From positions 1-39,904 of IMG/VR virus record IMGVR_UViG_3300037041_001843: DNA of 39,904 bases; one strand, written 5' to 3'. The notes beneath the pieces were generated by a model, which saw only the letters and a list, made by a program, of their open reading frames with translations, was not told where the DNA came from and searched no databases. How positions within the stretch are numbered: position 1 is the first letter of the stretch; every line of letters begins with the position of its first letter. The translations under genes were made by a program, and so were the position numbers. Shown here in pieces: positions 3,740 to 39,904 of the stretch. Origin of the DNA: a virus.

Positions 3740-3879
3740 AACACCTCCACCCGTTTTGAGCCTTGGTGTGCGGCTTTAATGTAATACTTTATGTTCCTGT
3801 AGCCTTATATAGCTGGCCATAAGCCCTCGGACGGGGCTATAGGATACTATTAAAAAGACCGTTTTTCAAGAGGTTATCT
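3740..3879. promoter_or_regulatory. divergent promoter region
   Basis: This gap holds no gene. TTATATA at 3805-3811 reads as an archaeal-type TATA box on both strands (CTATATAAGG on the minus strand). It would start leftward RNA near 3780, about 45 bases before GTG 3735, and rightward RNA near 3835. A second box, CTATTAAAAA at 3847-3856, would start rightward RNA close to 3880. A possible hairpin AGCCC/GGGCT lies at about 3823-3838. Which rightward box is used decides whether the leader needed for tRNA splicing is transcribed. Confidence 0.6.
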
Positions 3880-3981
3880 GGGCGTTGGTTGCAGGTTCGA
3901 GTCCTGCAAGCTGTGGGCGGCGCGAGTTCCGGAATTTGCGTCGTGACGGCTTTAGCTCAAGGGTAGAGCAGCGCCATAATG
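3880..3981 (+). tRNA. circularly permuted tRNA gene (3' half before 5' half)
   Basis: The 3' half comes first: G38 at 3880, anticodon-stem strand 3881-3885, variable loop 3886-3890, T stem GCAGG/CCTGC with loop TTCGAGT (3891-3907), acceptor strand 3908-3914, discriminator G 3915. A 30-nt spacer folds into a hairpin. The 5' half follows: acceptor ACGGCTT 3946-3952, T8 A9, D stem GCTC/GAGC (3955-3969), A26, anticodon stem 3971-3975, loop to 3981. The acceptor pairs over 7 bp and the anticodon stem over 5 (one G-U each). The joint forms a 3-4-3 bulge-helix-bulge: ATAA 3976-3979 with TTAT 3874-3877, bulges 3878-3880 and 3980-3982. Canonical cuts give a 72-nt tRNA. Core pairs T8-A14, A15-T48, G18G19 and TTC are all present. 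The anticodon reads AAU (A34), odd for an archaeon; decoding identity is uncertain. Confidence 0.72.
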
Positions 3982-3998
3982 CCCGTGGGGTTTATCGG

Positions 3999-4056
3999 TC
4001 AACGCAAGTTGATGGCGGGGTCAGGCTGGGAAAACCGCCCCAATACATGCCCAGCC
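3999..4056 (+). ncRNA. GNRA hairpin plus possible H-type pseudoknot in operon leader
   Basis: Downstream of the permuted tRNA a hairpin TCAAC-GCAA-GTTGA spans 3999-4012. A potential H-type pseudoknot follows: stem 1 GGCGG 4014-4018 with CCGCC 4035-4039, stem 2 GGCTGGG 4024-4030 with CCCAGCC 4050-4056, loops of 5, 4 (AAAA) and 10 nt. It ends 6 bases before the GGTGAT ribosome-binding site of the first rightward gene, a place suited to translational control. The hairpin competes with an outer helix (CGGTC 3996-4000 with GACCG 3857-3861) of the tRNA element. Confidence 0.45.
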
Positions 4057-4073
4057 AATTACGGTGATGCAGA

Positions 4074-4211
4074 ATGGCAGCAACAACTTCAATAGCAGTT
4101 CAAGAGAGCACCAAAGAAGCTCTGGACAAGTACAGGGAACACGAGCGCGAGACTTACGACGATATTGTCGTCAAGCTCATCAAGCTCGCCAAGAAGGGGA
4201 GACAACCATGA
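4074..4211 (+). CDS. first gene of rightward operon, small helical protein (45 aa)
   Basis: The frame reads MAATTSIAVQESTKEALDKY and continues with an acidic-basic helix ending KLAKKGRQP. ATG 4074 has GGTGATG at 4063-4069 with 4-5 bases of spacing, and the TGA overlaps the next ATG (ATGA at 4208). The pattern of one short strand (TTSIAVQ) followed by two helices resembles the small ribbon-helix-helix-like proteins common as antitoxins and transcription regulators in archaea. A regulatory role is inferred. It overlaps a different, longer frame starting at 4064 that I reject because it lacks a ribosome-binding site and reads as low-complexity sequence. Confidence 0.7.
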   Translation: MAATTSIAVQESTKEALDKYREHERETYDDIVVKLIKLAKKGRQP

Positions 4212-4549
4212 AACTGAATGTGCAGGAAAAAGTCGAGTCGAGCGAGCCTAAGACCATGCTTTACATGGACGGTCCTTATGCCGGGTTCAAGATACCCAAA
4301 GCCCAACTCAAGGCCCTCAAGACCGAGTTGGAAGCTCTGCGGGACAAGCTCGTGATTGTGGACAAGAAGATGTTCGCAGTCATCGCCAAAGGGCTCTATT
4401 TCAAGGCGCCGAAGTTGAAGTCCAAGGACCCGTTCGAGATTGACTGCGCTTGCCTGGACGAGACATTCAAGGCCGTCCGCGACGAGTTGTTCTTGCAGAT
4501 GAAGTTCGACCCCAAGCCCAAGCAGAAGAAGCTGACTGACAAGAAGTGA
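4208..4549 (+). CDS. hypothetical protein (113 aa)
   Basis: The product starts MKLNVQEKVESSEPK and is Lys-rich, with a mid-section 'DGPYAGFKIPKAQLKALKTELEALRDKL' (given here as DGPYAGFKIPK and LKALKTELEALRDKL) that should form a long helix. No family is recognised. The start at 4208 is fixed by the ATGA overlap with the upstream gene and a weak GGGGAG site. The stop overlaps the GTG of the next gene (GTGA). Basic composition suggests nucleic-acid or ribosome contact. Confidence 0.7.
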   Translation: MKLNVQEKVESSEPKTMLYMDGPYAGFKIPKAQLKALKTELEALRDKLVIVDKKMFAVIAKGLYFKAPKLKSKDPFEIDCACLDETFKAVRDELFLQMKFDPKPKQKKLTDKK

Positions 4550-5142
4550 TTGCCATGTCTGAACGGACTGCGAAGATTACCATTGAGTACGTCATCGTTG
4601 ACAAGCGCACTATCGAGGCTTCTGGCAAGGGCTTGGCGAGGATTGAGAAGGCACTCAAGCCGTATTTGATGCTTGAAGCGTTCAAGCCCGTAGTTGTTTC
4701 CATCAAGCCCGCGTATGTTGTTCGCAAGAAGCGCGGAAAGCCCGGACCCAAGCCGAAGCTGCTGAAAGAAAACAAGCTCGGCGGGAAACTTGCGATGACT
4801 AAACGCAAGTACAAGCACTCTGACAAGTGGATTGCAAAGCACAAGAAGGCCGGAGCTACCGGCGTGGCGTTGGACGCGGGTTCGATTCCCGCCCTCGCAA
4901 GGGGTAGCTCAGTGGCCGAGCAGCGCAACCCGGTGGGTGCAGCAAAGACCCATGTAGCTCGAGCGCCGGTTGGGGAGCGTAATACTCCCCGCCCTTCGGG
5001 GCCGAAGCCAAAGATGAAGCCGAACCCCAAAGCATTCCCAGACGCGGTTTATCACGACCACACACTCGAACGGGATTTGAAGCAGGCCGTCAAGTTGAAA
5101 GAGGACGGCGAGTTCGAAACAGACGAAGAGGATGCCAAGTGA
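4546..5142 (+). CDS. basic protein whose frame runs through a tRNA-like element
   Basis: The open frame is 198 codons from GTG 4546 (GTGA overlap) or 195 from ATG 4555. Residues 1-~55 look strand-rich (KITIEYVIVDKRT); residues ~60-100 are very basic (KKRGKPGPKPKLLKENK). About residues 103-145 are translated from the tRNA-like RNA at 4853-4960 and have the arbitrary look of translated tRNA (SIPALARGSSVAEQ). An acidic helix follows. One 198-residue protein, or two genes with the second starting at ATG 5014 (42 aa), are both possible. The frame staying open through the RNA is itself notable. Confidence 0.5.
   Translation: MIAMSERTAKITIEYVIVDKRTIEASGKGLARIEKALKPYLMLEAFKPVVVSIKPAYVVRKKRGKPGPKPKLLKENKLGGKLAMTKRKYKHSDKWIAKHKKAGATGVALDAGSIPALARGSSVAEQRNPVGAAKTHVARAPVGERNTPRPSGPKPKMKPNPKAFPDAVYHDHTLERDLKQAVKLKEDGEFETDEEDAK
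4853..4960 (+). ncRNA. permuted tRNA-like RNA with tetraloop-capped acceptor
   Basis: The layout repeats that at 3880: GGCGT 4866-4870, variable TGGAC, T stem-loop GCGGG/CCCGC with TTCGATT (4876-4892), then CCTC 4893-4896, GCAA, GGGG 4901-4904, T8 A9, D stem GCTC/GAGC (4907-4921), A26, GCGC 4923-4926. The acceptor is just 4 bp closed by a GNRA tetraloop. Tertiary signatures T8-A14, G15-C48, G18G19, T54-A58 and G53-C61 all hold. Flanks pair as CCGG 4859-4862 with 4930-4933 and GAGCTA 4853-4858 with TAGCTC 4955-4960, around an inserted hairpin TGGGT/ACCCA (4934-4952). There is no free 3' end, no U33 and no anticodon loop, so it should not be aminoacylated. It looks like a tRNA-core mimic. Confidence 0.6.
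4972..5002 (+). ncRNA. tandem GC-rich hairpins after tRNA-like element
   Basis: GGGGAG 4972-4977 pairs with CTCCCC 4985-4990 around a 7-nt loop. Immediately after, GCCC-TTCG-GGGC (4991-5002) forms a UUCG-capped hairpin. They lie 3' of the tRNA-like RNA inside the same open frame and end 11 bases before ATG 5014. They may protect or bound the RNA element; no T tract follows, so termination is unlikely. Confidence 0.4.
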
Positions 5143-6040: not shown

Positions 6041-6113
6041 AGCCGGTTCGTATAGAGGCCAAGTACGCTGGGCTTTGACCCCAGAGACAGGGGTTCGAGT
6101 CCTCTACCGGCTA
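6041..6113 (+). tRNA. tRNA-Gln (anticodon TTG)
   Basis: This is a normal cloverleaf of 73 nt: acceptor AGCCGGT/ACCGGCT 7 bp, D stem GTAT/GTAC with loop AGAGGCCAA, anticodon stem CTGGG/CCCAG with loop CTTTGAC (anticodon TTG at 6075-6077), 4-nt variable loop, T stem AGGGG/CCTCT with TTCGAGT, discriminator A 6113. T8, A14, G15 and C48 are present. CCA is not encoded. It would read CAA and CAG codons. It lies within the rightward operon, 73 bases before the next ribosome-binding region is complete, so it is probably cut from the polycistronic RNA by RNase P and RNase Z. Confidence 0.92.
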
Positions 6114-6311: not shown

Positions 6312-6788
6312 ATGGGCGAACCTATTATGGCGAAGGTCGACTTGAAGGACGCGACTGAGATTCCGGAAGAGCAGCCCTTCAAGTTCTTTACTTGCTTCAA
6401 GCTCGGCAGCCTGCAAGGCTATGCTTTCAAAGGAAAGCCCCGGCTCGGCTACTACCTTTTCAAAGCCAAGGACATTGAGCTTCTCGTGAAGGAGTCCATG
6501 CAAATCGGGCAGAAGAGCGGCTTCCAAGCTGGCTTCAAAGAGGGTGCAGCCGAGGTTGTGAAGAAGTCCTTGCAAGACTTGTTCAAGGACTTCAAGCCGC
6601 CGAAGGGTGCGACGATAGAAACCGTCAACGTGAATATCCCGTCTACGGTGTCCGGGAACTTCGCGACTACTACGGACGTCTTGAGCGCGACGAGCACAAC
6701 GGATATTGGCGCTCCGTACATGCCCAATGGAATTGTCCCTCGGAAGCAAATAAAAAAGCAGCAACACAAAAAGTTGCGGAGTAGATGA
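6312..6788 (+). CDS. hypothetical protein (158 aa)
   Basis: The product begins MGEPIMAKVDLKDATEIPEE and has a central 'IGQKSGFQAGFKEGAAEVVKKSLQDLFKDF' region (IGQKSGFQAGFKEGA, AEVVKKSLQDLFKDF) likely to be helical. A Thr/Ser-rich section and a basic tail (RKQIKKQQHKKLRSR) follow. ATG 6312 follows GGTGAT; ATG 6327 is an alternative. The stop overlaps queD's ATG (ATGA), tying it to the modification cluster, but I recognise no family. Confidence 0.65.
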   Translation: MGEPIMAKVDLKDATEIPEEQPFKFFTCFKLGSLQGYAFKGKPRLGYYLFKAKDIELLVKESMQIGQKSGFQAGFKEGAAEVVKKSLQDLFKDFKPPKGATIETVNVNIPSTVSGNFATTTDVLSATSTTDIGAPYMPNGIVPRKQIKKQQHKKLRSR

Positions 6789-7165
6789 ACATGAAGATTG
6801 GAACAGAGCTCAACCTGTGCTGCGCGCACAATCTCGGACTCCCGTACGAGAGCAAGTGCAACACCACGCACGGCCACAACTACCGCGTCCTCGTAGAGAT
6901 AGGCGGAAGCCTGGACGAGTACGGCATGATAATCGACTTCGCCAAGGTGAAGGCTGCTTTGATGAAGTACGACCACCAGGACTTGAACAAGATGATGCAG
7001 GGCCGGCCCACGGCAGAGAACATGGCGAGGATATTCATCATCGAGCTCATGGCGATATGCGGGCAGAATGTCAAGGATATTGGCGTCCGCGTTTACGAGA
7101 CCCCGACGAGCTACGCAGAAGAAACGTACGAGCAGGTCGGGACCGAGTGGAGGCCTTCCGAATGA
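6785..7165 (+). CDS. queD: 6-carboxy-5,6,7,8-tetrahydropterin synthase
   Basis: QueD converts 7,8-dihydroneopterin triphosphate to 6-carboxytetrahydropterin, step two of 7-deazaguanine synthesis. Family hallmarks are intact: zinc ligands His15, His29 and His31 in 'CNTTHGHNY', catalytic Cys25 just before them, 'GMIIDFAKVK', the Asp-His pair in 'YDHQDLN', 'PTAEN', and a C-terminal 'ETPTSYA' with the substrate-binding Glu. At 126 residues it is normal length. ATG 6785 overlaps the upstream TGA, and its own stop overlaps queE. Together with folE, queE and dpdA it implies modified viral DNA. Confidence 0.93.
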   Translation: MNMKIGTELNLCCAHNLGLPYESKCNTTHGHNYRVLVEIGGSLDEYGMIIDFAKVKAALMKYDHQDLNKMMQGRPTAENMARIFIIELMAICGQNVKDIGVRVYETPTSYAEETYEQVGTEWRPSE

Positions 7166-7875
7166 GCTTGACTCTTGCTGGCAACGAACTCTTTTACTCC
7201 CTCCAAGGCGAAGGCCCGACGATGGGCCGGCCTTCCATCTTCTTGAGACTTCACGGCTGCAACCTGAACTGCAAGTGGAAGGACAGCTCATGCGACACTC
7301 CATACGCAACAAACCCCAAAGAAGCGACCCAATGGGACGTGAAGGAACTCGCAAAGAAGGTCGTGACCCTGGCTGACCTTCACAAGTGCCCGCGCATCAT
7401 CATAACAGGCGGCGAACCCTTGTTGCAGGTCGAAGATCTTTACGTCCTCGTCGGGTTATTGCATCTTTACCGTCCGAGCGTGCCTTGGTATTTCGAAATC
7501 GAAACGAACGGCACGAAGTTCGACGAGACTCTTTTCCAAGTCGTGCAGCAGGTGAATTGCAGCCCGAAGCTTGCAAGCTCAGGCAACAACGACAAGACCA
7601 GGGAGTTGCACCCGGGCTACCTGCACTTGATGGACCTCGGAGCGCGGGTTTACTTCAAGTTCGTCGTGTCCAGTCCGGAGGACGTGCAGGAGATACTGGC
7701 TCTGCAGGAGAAGTTCGGGATTCCCAACGGCGCGATTTACTTGATGCCGGAGGGCGTGACGCAGGAAGCGATTTACGAGAAGATGGGCTGGCTGGCCGAG
7801 CTTTGTAAGGAAATGGGCTGGAACTTGGCACCAAGGCTGCACATCTTGCTGTGGGGGAATACGCGTGGCAAGTGA
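7162..7875 (+). CDS. queE: 7-carboxy-7-deazaguanine synthase (radical SAM)
   Basis: QueE rearranges 6-carboxytetrahydropterin to 7-carboxy-7-deazaguanine (CDG) with a 4Fe-4S cluster and SAM. The N-terminus shows 'NELFYSLQGEGPTMGRP', a QueE signature, then the cluster cysteines 33, 37 and 44, 'CDTPYA', and 'ITGGEPLLQ' (82-89). The cysteines are spaced C-x3-C-x6-C, whereas most QueE have C-x3-C-x2-C or a C-x14-C-x2-C variant: four extra residues (KDSS) sit before the third Cys. The length of 237 is usual. ATG 7162 overlaps queD's stop; an upstream in-frame extension inside queD is rejected. Confidence 0.93.
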   Translation: MSLTLAGNELFYSLQGEGPTMGRPSIFLRLHGCNLNCKWKDSSCDTPYATNPKEATQWDVKELAKKVVTLADLHKCPRIIITGGEPLLQVEDLYVLVGLLHLYRPSVPWYFEIETNGTKFDETLFQVVQQVNCSPKLASSGNNDKTRELHPGYLHLMDLGARVYFKFVVSSPEDVQEILALQEKFGIPNGAIYLMPEGVTQEAIYEKMGWLAELCKEMGWNLAPRLHILLWGNTRGK

Positions 7876-9131: not shown

Positions 9132-9487
9132 ACAAACCAGTCTTCGTATTGTGTTGCGTGCTGCTCACCTTGTTGTTATTCGCGAGCTTCTCAGAGAAGA
9201 GCCAACCAATTCAACCGAGCAGCTTTCCTGCAAGCTTGCCGACACCGACACCCTTCATCGAATCGAACACACAACCCGTAGTGGTCCTCGTCGTTCCGGA
9301 ACCCAATTTGACTACGGGAAGGCAGTACGTCCTACATGCAAGCCCGGTTGGAGAGACGAGCGGCAACGAATCTTTGACGATAGTGCCTGCGCACCCGGGC
9401 GTGATAATCGGCGGCAATCGCGCACAATGCGAACTACTAATGAATACTAATGAATGTCAAATTAGTAATTGGAGCAGAACGCCATGA
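9128..9487 (+). CDS. membrane-anchored or secreted protein (119 aa)
   Basis: An N-terminal hydrophobic helix (PVFVLCCVLLTLLLFAS, residues 4-20) acts as a signal or membrane anchor. A Pro/Ser/Thr-rich linker (SSFPASLPTPTPF) and a small strand-rich domain follow, with Cys near residues 100 and 109 that could form a disulfide. No lipobox is clear. ATG 9128 overlaps the upstream stop and the stop overlaps dpdA (ATGA). Being between two modification genes does not itself suggest a modification role; the family is unknown. Confidence 0.65.
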   Translation: MNKPVFVLCCVLLTLLLFASFSEKSQPIQPSSFPASLPTPTPFIESNTQPVVVLVVPEPNLTTGRQYVLHASPVGETSGNESLTIVPAHPGVIIGGNRAQCELLMNTNECQISNWSRTP

Positions 9488-10152
9488 CCATCGTCTACTT
9501 GTCCACCGGCCCGAAACGCACGCCACTCCTGGCAGACAGCGGTTGCCCCAGCCTGCTCGTTTCATACTACTTCTTACACAACGCGCGTGGCAAGCCCGAC
9601 TTGGAGAAGTACATGAAGTATTTGGAGGACAATAAGGAGTTCATCACCACGTACGTCAACGCGGACACCGCCGACCTTCAAGAGACGAAGCGCAACATGC
9701 AAACAATGCTTGACCACGGATTCAAGCCCATCACGGTCTTTCACGCGAACCTCGACCCCGTCGAAGTGTTCTTGGAGTACTGCGAGACGTACGACTACTT
9801 CGGGATTGGAGGGGCGGGATTCGTGCATGACATGAGCCTGCGCAAGAAGATGATTCCTTATTACGCCAACCTCGCCAGGCGTTATGGCGTGAAGCTGCAC
9901 GGCTTCGGCATGACTGACTTCTCCTTCATCAAAAATTATCCTTGGTATTCCGTTGACTCATCTTCCTGGGCGGGGGGTAGTCGGTGGGGTTACATTTATC
10001 ACTTTGACAAAGGCGACTTAGTACAAACGAAAGCCAAGAACCAGTTGCCGAATGAGACGATTGACTCGTTCAACTGCGTGAATTGGAGCCGCTACGCGGA
10101 ACATGCTTTAGAGAGAGGGGATTTGAATTGGAAAGACGAATGGAAGAAATAA
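9484..10152 (+). CDS. dpdA: DpdA-like DNA 7-deazaguanine transglycosylase
   Basis: DpdA proteins are TGT-related enzymes that exchange guanine in DNA for a 7-deazaguanine base. Signatures seen: 'LADSGCPSLLVSYYF' near the N-terminus, 'YVNADTADLQETKRN' (58-71), 'YFGIGGAG' (105-112), 'KLHGFGMTD' (137-145) and 'WYSVDSSSWAGGSRWG' (154-169). The last two are the TIM-barrel strands carrying active-site Asp and substrate loop in phage DpdA. At 222 residues it is a short form without extra RNA-binding domains. ATG 9484 overlaps the upstream TGA. It ends the cluster queD-queE-PRT-folE-QueD-like-dpdA. Confidence 0.88.
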   Translation: MTIVYLSTGPKRTPLLADSGCPSLLVSYYFLHNARGKPDLEKYMKYLEDNKEFITTYVNADTADLQETKRNMQTMLDHGFKPITVFHANLDPVEVFLEYCETYDYFGIGGAGFVHDMSLRKKMIPYYANLARRYGVKLHGFGMTDFSFIKNYPWYSVDSSSWAGGSRWGYIYHFDKGDLVQTKAKNQLPNETIDSFNCVNWSRYAEHALERGDLNWKDEWKK

Positions 10153-10739
10153 GCGTCGACGACCTGACTGTCAACGATTACAACCCGAACGAGATGACGG
10201 ATAGCCTCATGGCCAGGTTGCAGGCCGAAATCAAGCGGGTAGGCTTCTTAGCGCCAATCATCGCCCGGGCAGCCGCAGGCAAACTCATCATCATTGACGG
10301 GGAGCATCGCTATATGGCTGCTAAAGCTTTGGGTATGACCTCAGTTCCAGTAATCGTAACTGATTTGACGGAAGAGGAGGCCAAGATTCAAACAGTCAAC
10401 CTCAACCAAATCAAGGGCGAGCTCAACCCGTTGAAGTACGCCAAGCTGCTTTCAGGCCTCAGGAGCAACTTCTCAAGCGAGCAAATTGAAACCTACCTGG
10501 GCGTCAAGGCCCGGGAACTCGCTGCTTACGAAGAAATCCTCAACTCACCAAAGAGGGACGTCCGCCTGGTGAACTTCAACGCCGTCGACGCAACAAACAA
10601 GCCCTTGGAAATCAGCTTCTTCATCACCGGGGAGGACCAAAAACTCGTCCAAGACGCCCTTAACGACACGGGAAAACCCAACAAAAACGAGGCCTTCATG
10701 GACATCATCAAGCACTACAAAGATTCACTCGCAAAGTAG
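10140..10739 (+). CDS. ParB-like N-terminal domain protein (199 aa)
   Basis: The first ~100 residues are a ParB/Srx-type domain: 'VNDYNPNEMTDSLMARLQAEI' (cited as VNDYNPNEM and LMARLQAEI), 'APIIARAAAGKLIIIDGEHR' with the DGEHR box, 'AAKALGMTSVPVIV', 'QTVNLNQIKGELNP'. These domains bind CTP or act as nucleases, and stand-alone copies commonly lie beside phage terminase genes. A C-terminal helical part follows. ATG 10140 overlaps the end of dpdA by 13 bases; TTG 10128 is an alternative. A packaging or DNA-binding role is inferred from position. Confidence 0.85.
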   Translation: MEEISVDDLTVNDYNPNEMTDSLMARLQAEIKRVGFLAPIIARAAAGKLIIIDGEHRYMAAKALGMTSVPVIVTDLTEEEAKIQTVNLNQIKGELNPLKYAKLLSGLRSNFSSEQIETYLGVKARELAAYEEILNSPKRDVRLVNFNAVDATNKPLEISFFITGEDQKLVQDALNDTGKPNKNEAFMDIIKHYKDSLAK

Positions 10740-38700: not shown

Positions 38701-39904
38701 TCACCGGGTGGAAGGGGCTTTCGCCCTCTTCACCTTTGCCTTCGCGTGACCAACGGACACGACTGCGCCTTTCTTTTTTTTCTCGATGACTTTCAGATTC
38801 AATAGCTCGATGACTTTGCGAATCTGCGCATCCGAGTTCTTGTCCAAAGCCCCATCAGGGACGACTGTGTTGCCGTCCTTGGAGAACTTGACATACCATC
38901 GCCAGAAGCCCTTGAACGGCGCTGAGAACCCTTCGATGGTGATGCTCGCGTCGTCCTTGTAGCTGCTGAACTCCAAGGTGCCTTGGCTCTCGATGCTGAT
39001 GCGCGAAATGTTCAACGCTATTGGCAGCTTGAACATGTCGAACAAGACCTTCCTTGCAGCCGCGTACGCGCCTTCGACTTTGTACGTGCGCTGGAAAACC
39101 TGCTTCTTCTCCTTGGCCTTGGGCTTGTCGTTTTCGAGGCCGGTCTGCGGGACCTTGCCAGTCTTGGGGCTCCAATCGTGGCCTTTTTCGCACTCGAAGT
39201 TGCCGCCGTAGGCAATCTCTTTAGCCGGGCCTTTACAAACGGGGCAAGTCTTGAACTCTGCCTTCTCAACCGCCAGGGCGAGCGTCTTCGCCTCTTCAAG
39301 GGTTTCCTTCGCATGGCGGCACAACCAAGAGTAGTTGCAGCCGTACTTCTCGGCCTTGCCTATCTTGATTGCTTCCTTTCGCTCGATTGTAGAGAGCGAG
39401 GCGAACAAGAGCCAGTCGTTCGCGTCAGGCTTGCTTTGATTCTTTTTCGCCAACGAAAGAATACCCTCGTGCTCTTCCTGCGTGATGCCCGCGAGCTGCT
39501 GGCGCTCCTTGAGGAACTTCTCGCTGACTCCGTAATCCTTCGAGAGTGACCCGAGCTTGGCGCCTCCTTCCAACGCTGTTTGGAAGAACTTGGCCTGCTT
39601 GAAAAAGTCCAGAGAGCCCCTTGCTTCGTTGACTTTGTAGCAGATGCGCCGGGCGGTTGCCTCGTCGATGTCCTGCACGATTACCTTCACGCTTTCCCAG
39701 CCGAGTTTTTTGGCGATGGCGAACCTGTGCGCACCGTCGATTATCTCGTACACGACGTGTGTGGGCTTGTCGCCGGTTGTCACGCCAGAGTTCCAAACCC
39801 TGACGAGAATCGGCTGCTGCTGGCCGTCCTTCTTCATGCTCGTTTCAAGCTCTGCAAGCTTGTCAGAGTTCATCTCGTTCGGGTTGAAGGTGTTTTCCCT
39901 CAAC
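38701..39904 (-). CDS. ParB-like protein with zinc ribbon (continues at 1-159)
   Basis: Together with bases up to 159 beyond the contig junction this encodes about 411 residues. Residues ~12-110 form a ParB N-terminal domain: 'FNPNEMNSDKLAELETSMKK', 'QQPILVRVWNS', 'YEIIDGAHRFAIAKKLGW' with the DGAHR box. A KorB-like helical middle follows (SLSKDYGVSEKFLKERQQLA). A zinc ribbon CPVCKGPAKEIAYGGNFECE lies near 230, and a C-terminal beta/helical domain ends the protein. It could partition an episomal genome, bind the origin, or control transcription; no ParA is seen. Confidence 0.85.
   Translation of the reverse strand, partial: LRENTFNPNEMNSDKLAELETSMKKDGQQQPILVRVWNSGVTTGDKPTHVVYEIIDGAHRFAIAKKLGWESVKVIVQDIDEATARRICYKVNEARGSLDFFKQAKFFQTALEGGAKLGSLSKDYGVSEKFLKERQQLAGITQEEHEGILSLAKKNQSKPDANDWLLFASLSTIERKEAIKIGKAEKYGCNYSWLCRHAKETLEEAKTLALAVEKAEFKTCPVCKGPAKEIAYGGNFECEKGHDWSPKTGKVPQTGLENDKPKAKEKKQVFQRTYKVEGAYAAARKVLFDMFKLPIALNISRISIESQGTLEFSSYKDDASITIEGFSAPFKGFWRWYVKFSKDGNTVVPDGALDKNSDAQIRKVIELLNLKVIEKKKKGAVVSVGHAKAKVKRAKAPSTR
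39778..39904. repeat. right copy of 127-bp terminal direct repeat
   Basis: Identical to 1-127. It shows that the contig is circular or terminally redundant and that the ParB-like gene is intact when the ends are joined. Confidence 0.95.

Follow-up and report, generated by a model that had tools for sequence, protein, structure and literature searches.

Gene content of the window and its likely host

The stretch of viral DNA that we analyzed, hereafter the window, comprises the 39,904 bases of an IMG/VR record (G000) that encodes portal, terminase, major capsid, and tape-measure proteins. Two elements on its plus strand, which we term W1 (3857-4000; 144 nt) and W2 (4849-4966; 118 nt), are the subject of this report. 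W1 is intergenic, lying between diverging gene blocks just ahead of the first rightward open reading frame, and W2 lies inside a 198-codon open frame on the plus strand (4546-5142), the peptide of which includes AGSIPALARGSSVAEQR. Both ends of this frame overlap neighboring frames, and its codon usage is weaker over 4906-5026. Our searches found no homologues of the 4064-4549 and 4546-5142 frames and no protein family for the latter. We also observed TTATATAG at 3805-3812 in the divergent intergenic region, approximately 45 to 50 bases before W1, which resembles an archaeal TATA box and is a candidate for one.

Across the whole window, the only ordinary tRNA or tmRNA detected by ARAGORN and by Rfam at gathering level was a linear tRNA-Gln(TTG) at 6041-6113. 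This tRNA has no encoded CCA and carries A1-U72, an archaeal-type feature of tRNA-Gln, and a BLASTN search with it for clues to the host returned unspecific tRNA matches only. Genes of the 7-deazaguanine pathway, which serves tRNA or DNA modification, encode QueD-like (6785-7165), QueE-like (6817-7875), and TGT-like (queuine tRNA-ribosyltransferase; 9469-10152) proteins, the last of which had no match among solved structures. The virus also encodes a methyltransferase, and two ParB-N-like proteins occur in this one viral record (10083-10739, plus strand; 38701-39903, minus strand). AUU is its most frequent Ile codon. A TROVE/Ro60 gene (PF05731) had no match in the 39.9-kb record, which is possibly a genome fragment.

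Among phage records, the capsid protein matched archaeal tailed viruses only (HCTV, HVTV, and a Methanofastidiosa virus), at 28-33% identity. Relatives of this protein also occur in a contig in a TA06 bacterium MAG (L008; 50% identity) and in a Pacearchaeota MAG (L009; 44% identity), and two genomes from the phylum of the Pacearchaeota MAG contain relatives. The occurrence of capsid relatives in MAG contigs of two domains possibly reflects a binning error or a wide host spread. An archaeal host is likely for this virus, and the TA06 and Pacearchaeota-phylum relatives do not fix that host.

Two tRNA-like folds in permuted order

In W1, a 3' tRNA-like half (3880-3915, plus strand) precedes a 5' tRNA-like half (3946-3981, plus strand), with a 30-nt spacer (3916-3945) between them. 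The 5' half supplies the acceptor strand ACGGCTT, T8-A9, the D stem GCTC/GAGC with the loop AAGGGTA, and the anticodon-stem strand GCGCC followed by ATAATG. The 3' half supplies G38, the anticodon-stem strand GGCGT, the variable loop TGGTT, the T stem GCAGG/CCTGC with the loop TTCGAGT, the acceptor strand AAGCTGT, and G73. T33 and G37 are present, as are the tertiary pairs A15-T48 and G53-C61. Rejoined, the two halves give 72 nt that ARAGORN reads as tRNA-Ile(aat) with a clean 7-4-5-5 cloverleaf. All features named in the original prediction, among them the reversed halves, both tertiary pairs, and the 5-nt variable loop, are found where it had placed them.

The permuted order was also found in the native DNA when ARAGORN was run in circular mode with 3801-4060 treated as a circle, and across 60 dinucleotide-shuffled copies of the window, 2.39 Mb in total, this search produced a single wrapped hit. 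We built a covariance model, R1, from 14 ordinary tRNAs that were cut at 37/38, permuted, and joined by a neutral spacer. R1 scored 50.3 bits on W1 (3880-3981; E=1.1e-16). Compared with shuffles, both the 102-nt core (z=-3.4) and the 144-nt element (z=-2.7) fold more stably. The rarity of such hits in shuffled DNA together with the R1 score argues that the permuted fold of W1 is not due to chance, confirming that its back-to-front tRNA shape is real as a fold. In the minimum free energy (MFE) structure, the spacer forms a 12-bp hairpin with a CCGG loop that prolongs the acceptor stem. The GACCG/CGGTC helix pointed out in the original prediction (3857-3861 with 3996-4000, plus strand) also lies in the MFE structure, where it forms a candidate basal stem.

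Searching the window with R1 revealed W2, an element with the same order of halves that the original prediction had overlooked. Its permuted tRNA-like head (4865-4933, plus strand; 32.9 bits, E=3.6e-10) consists of a T arm (GCGGG/CCCGC), a 4-bp acceptor hairpin with a GCAA cap, a D arm (GCTC/GAGC), and a partial anticodon stem. In the MFE structure, this head sits on a candidate basal stem of GAGCTAC (4853-4859) and GTAGCTC (4955-4961). Both U33 and the acceptor end are missing. Lacking U33 and with its acceptor sealed by the GCAA-capped hairpin, W2 is therefore unable to yield a tRNA. The Levitt pair is G15-C48 in W2 versus A15-U48 in W1, and its preservation in both elements suggests that each resembles an L-shaped tRNA head. 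W2 folds no better than its shuffles (z=-0.5).

A recent duplication giving rise to W1 and W2 was considered and rejected, as their core identity (75%) is not above that of unrelated viral elements (up to 83%). A weak tmRNA match (21.6 bits) proved to be the T arm of W2. The original prediction had proposed searching related viral contigs for conserved permuted halves. W1-like elements were found in none of the 26 virus records searched among the capsid and terminase relatives, and W2-like elements were likewise absent from relatives of this virus. Matches of 19 bits in L024 and L030 were discarded as W1-like elements, being barely longer than a T arm and inside AT-rich sequence.

The absence of both elements from relatives and the poor folding of W2 would fit nonfunctional remnants, that is, tRNA-derived sequence gained by recombination with a folding ability kept by chance. 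Against this stand the R1 E values of 1e-16 and 4e-10 in the window, the single wrapped ARAGORN match in 2.39 Mb of shuffles, the z score of the W1 core, and a Levitt pair that is preserved in different form in each element. We consider remnants very improbable.

Possible splicing of W1 and possible control in cis

The original prediction held W1 to be a circularly permuted tRNA gene, and we know of no viral case of such a gene. On this account, the host splicing endonuclease would cut a bulge-helix-bulge (BHB) at 3879/3880 and 3981/3982, the ends would be joined to form a circular molecule, and removal of the 30-nt spacer by RNase P and tRNase Z would leave an AAU tRNA, with W2 being a decayed copy. 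Several observations speak for it: the complete cloverleaf with its tertiary pairs, T33 and G37 in place, major capsid relatives that among known viruses are archaeal together with the possession of the endonuclease by archaea, and AUU as the Ile codon that the virus uses most. By constrained folding, a BHB with the exact 3-4-3 geometry can be drawn at 37/38 as had been claimed. Its 5' strand is GG TTAT CTG (3872-3880, plus strand) and its 3' strand ATAA TGC CC (3976-3984, plus strand), forming the helix TTAT/ATAA with bulges CTG and TGC. However, forming the BHB costs 3.2 to 4.1 kcal/mol relative to the most stable fold with an intact cloverleaf core, and beyond the bulges the outer helix amounts to only the 2 bp of GG/CC.

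Other features of W1 also sit poorly with maturation into a tRNA. The sequence gives an AAU anticodon (A34) and G73. Archaeal tRNA-Ile is generally known to carry a GAU or modified CAU anticodon and A73, so that for the archaeal host inferred here neither A34 nor G73 of W1 is suited to tRNA-Ile, in agreement with the original remark that AAU is odd for archaea. Spacer lengths of 1-74 are on record for permuted tRNAs, and this spacer falls within that range, but it is shut into a 12-bp hairpin, and in the permuted tRNAs known from archaea the halves meet at 59/60 and CCA is encoded (PMC3978253). Furthermore, W2 has the same order of halves yet cannot be a tRNA. The BHB energy, the 2-bp outer helix, the hairpin spacer, the 59/60 and CCA precedents, and A34 and G73 together indicate that splicing of W1 is possible but not favored, and we regard a genuine permuted tRNA gene as unlikely.

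The positions of the two elements raise a different possibility, in which W1, as part of the rightward operon's leader, and W2, within the 4546-5142 frame, would be cis-acting tRNA-like structures that bind a tRNA-handling enzyme and so control mRNA processing or translation. The enzyme could be RNase P, a synthetase, or a tRNA-modifying enzyme, perhaps one of the virus itself, which encodes the QueD-like, QueE-like, and TGT-like proteins and the methyltransferase. The location of W1 between diverging blocks and ahead of the first rightward frame agrees with such a role. Against it, the position is not conserved in relatives, and no known operator of this kind was among the Rfam matches. Control in cis is, in our estimation, quite improbable.

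Probable relation of W1 and W2 to Y RNAs

For both elements, the best Rfam match by bits in a permissive scan was YrlA, a bacterial Y RNA (RF02553), with 36.5 bits for the W2 head and 35.8 bits for W1 (3883-3973), covering model positions 23-87 and 23-85, respectively. Neither W1 nor W2 reached the YrlA gathering cut-off of 69 bits. Because any tRNA permuted at this place would match the YrlA head, the match is not discriminating for W1 alone. The permuted domain is present in both elements, with a closed acceptor hairpin between T arm and D arm that is extended in W1 and GCAA capped in W2. YrlA RNAs are described as 90-150 nt long. Pairing of their two ends makes a stem to which Rsr (Ro60) is bound, and their D, T, and acceptor arms make up a tRNA-like domain that PNPase binds and that DusA and TruB modify; the layout and size of W1 and W2 agree with this description (PMC8394870).

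We also examined elements of similar layout in other viruses. The spacing from T loop to D arm in W2 is too short for two tandem tRNA genes, and a DNA pattern for this short spacing matched 96 IMG/VR stretches, 80 of which are listed as loci L071-L150. TROVE (Ro60) matches at E<=0.001 were present in 26 of 50 pattern-matched contigs (24 of the 26 above the Pfam cut-off) versus none of 23 capsid and terminase relatives of the window virus, which suggests that the short-form pattern largely finds phage Y RNAs. None of the 50 contigs with Y-like elements contained the capsid family of the window virus. At five scanned loci, four elements scored 42-48 bits on YrlA, all below the gathering score. 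Two of the four, L087 and L100, scored lowest (42-43 bits) although their contigs carry Ro60, so that the YrlA cut-off misses phage members in general.

The basal stem of Y RNAs carries a Ro60-binding motif, GNCGAAN0-1G. A motif of this type occurs at the 5' end of W2 as GCCGGAG, which is shared with the Ro60-positive loci L072, L117, and L147, and is lacking in W1; a single such match has a chance of approximately 6% per element, and the pattern was found in only 4 of 25 Ro60-positive elements. A second motif, GNTTAYY, lies upstream of the T arm in 12 of the 25 Ro60-positive elements (1.7 expected). W1 carries GGTTATC at this flank position, as do many Ro60-associated phage Y RNAs, and the 5' strand of the possible BHB overlaps it.

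Among the pattern-matched loci, L089, L090 (3739-3874), L103, L106, L134/L144, and L139 each contain an ordinary tRNA, detected in the intron mode of ARAGORN, with a second, permuted tRNA-like domain in its anticodon arm. The inserted domain of these loci has a capped acceptor. The L090 arrangement folds far beyond shuffles (z=-3.5) with its outer acceptor and T arm paired; those of L089 and L139 fold no better than shuffles. Another locus, L084 (minus strand, about 2810-2950), has two tandem closed permuted tRNA-like units that directly follow ordinary tRNA genes; its contig has no TROVE match.

Considering these analyses together, we propose that W1 and W2 are probably Y RNA-like tRNA mimics with the architecture of YrlA rather than a spliced tRNA gene. 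The evidence for this interpretation includes the GCAA-capped 4-bp acceptor of W2 and its missing U33, the joining of the acceptor ends of W1 through a 12-bp hairpin, YrlA as the top Rfam match by bits, the co-occurrence of short-form elements with Ro60, and the GGTTATC and GCCGGAG motifs. Counted against it are the sub-cut-off YrlA scores, the missing TROVE match in the window, a W1 free of the Ro60-type motif, the z score of W2, and the absence of both elements from relatives of this virus. Given that the Rfam score and partner gene were assessed with these outcomes, membership in the Ro60-binding Y RNAs is not established. As for the original prediction, "circularly permuted tRNA" was the right description of the W1 fold, but a gene spliced by the host is not supported in view of the closed acceptor of W2, YrlA as nearest family, the unfavored BHB, A34 and G73, and the Ro60 co-occurrence of such layouts.

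In the proposed Y RNA-like mimics, the heads would be circularly permuted tRNA mimics based on a stem that joins the 5' and 3' ends. The RNA would be neither spliced nor charged and may persist as a stable RNA or as an element of a transcript, with its head recognized by an RNA-processing protein. The host might supply this partner, or its gene might lie outside the present contig; if the host is an archaeon, the exosome could serve as the counterpart of PNPase.

Should W1 and W2 behave as Y RNAs do, the use of tRNA mimics would extend to viruses in the lineage of archaeal tailed viruses, and such RNAs could be present on contigs that lack a Ro60 gene and even within an open reading frame. Binding of such heads to the archaeal exosome or to tRNA-processing or tRNA-modifying enzymes would then be testable. 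Our findings also carry a warning for searches for permuted tRNAs in viral DNA, which will catch Y RNA-like elements: reversed halves and a drawable BHB are insufficient to claim a permuted tRNA gene.

Compared with the permuted tRNA genes of Cyanidioschyzon, green algae, and Thermofilum, W1 shares a 3' half before the 5' half, a short spacer, and a drawable BHB. It differs in its AAU anticodon and in having a second copy, W2, with a sealed acceptor, and from the archaeal genes in a junction at 37/38 with an unfavored BHB rather than a 59/60 join with CCA. Permuted, two-piece tmRNA likewise has its tRNA-like 3' part encoded ahead of its 5' part, whereas W1 and W2 have no tag-coding segment, possess a D arm and an anticodon-type stem, and match the tmRNA model in the T arm only. 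Mobile genomes with Y RNAs or their protein partner are already on record: phage Y RNAs are reported in mycobacteriophages and Listeria phage CKA15 (PMC12282133), Y RNA or TROVE proteins in jumbo phages (PMC7824862), and a TROVE protein in archaeal Borgs (PMC11208441). In contrast, the RNAs described here occur without TROVE on the contig, and the capsid relatives of their virus are of archaeal type. Both elements have in common with YrlA a permuted tRNA-like head in which an anticodon-type stem, a T arm, and a D arm accompany a closed acceptor hairpin; the head rests on what in W1 and W2 is a candidate stem between the two ends of the RNA. W1 departs from YrlA in its full 7-bp acceptor with a 12-bp extension and in being without the Ro60-type motif, and W2 in its position within an open frame; both score about 36 bits, where the cut-off is 69, and their contig has no Ro60 gene.
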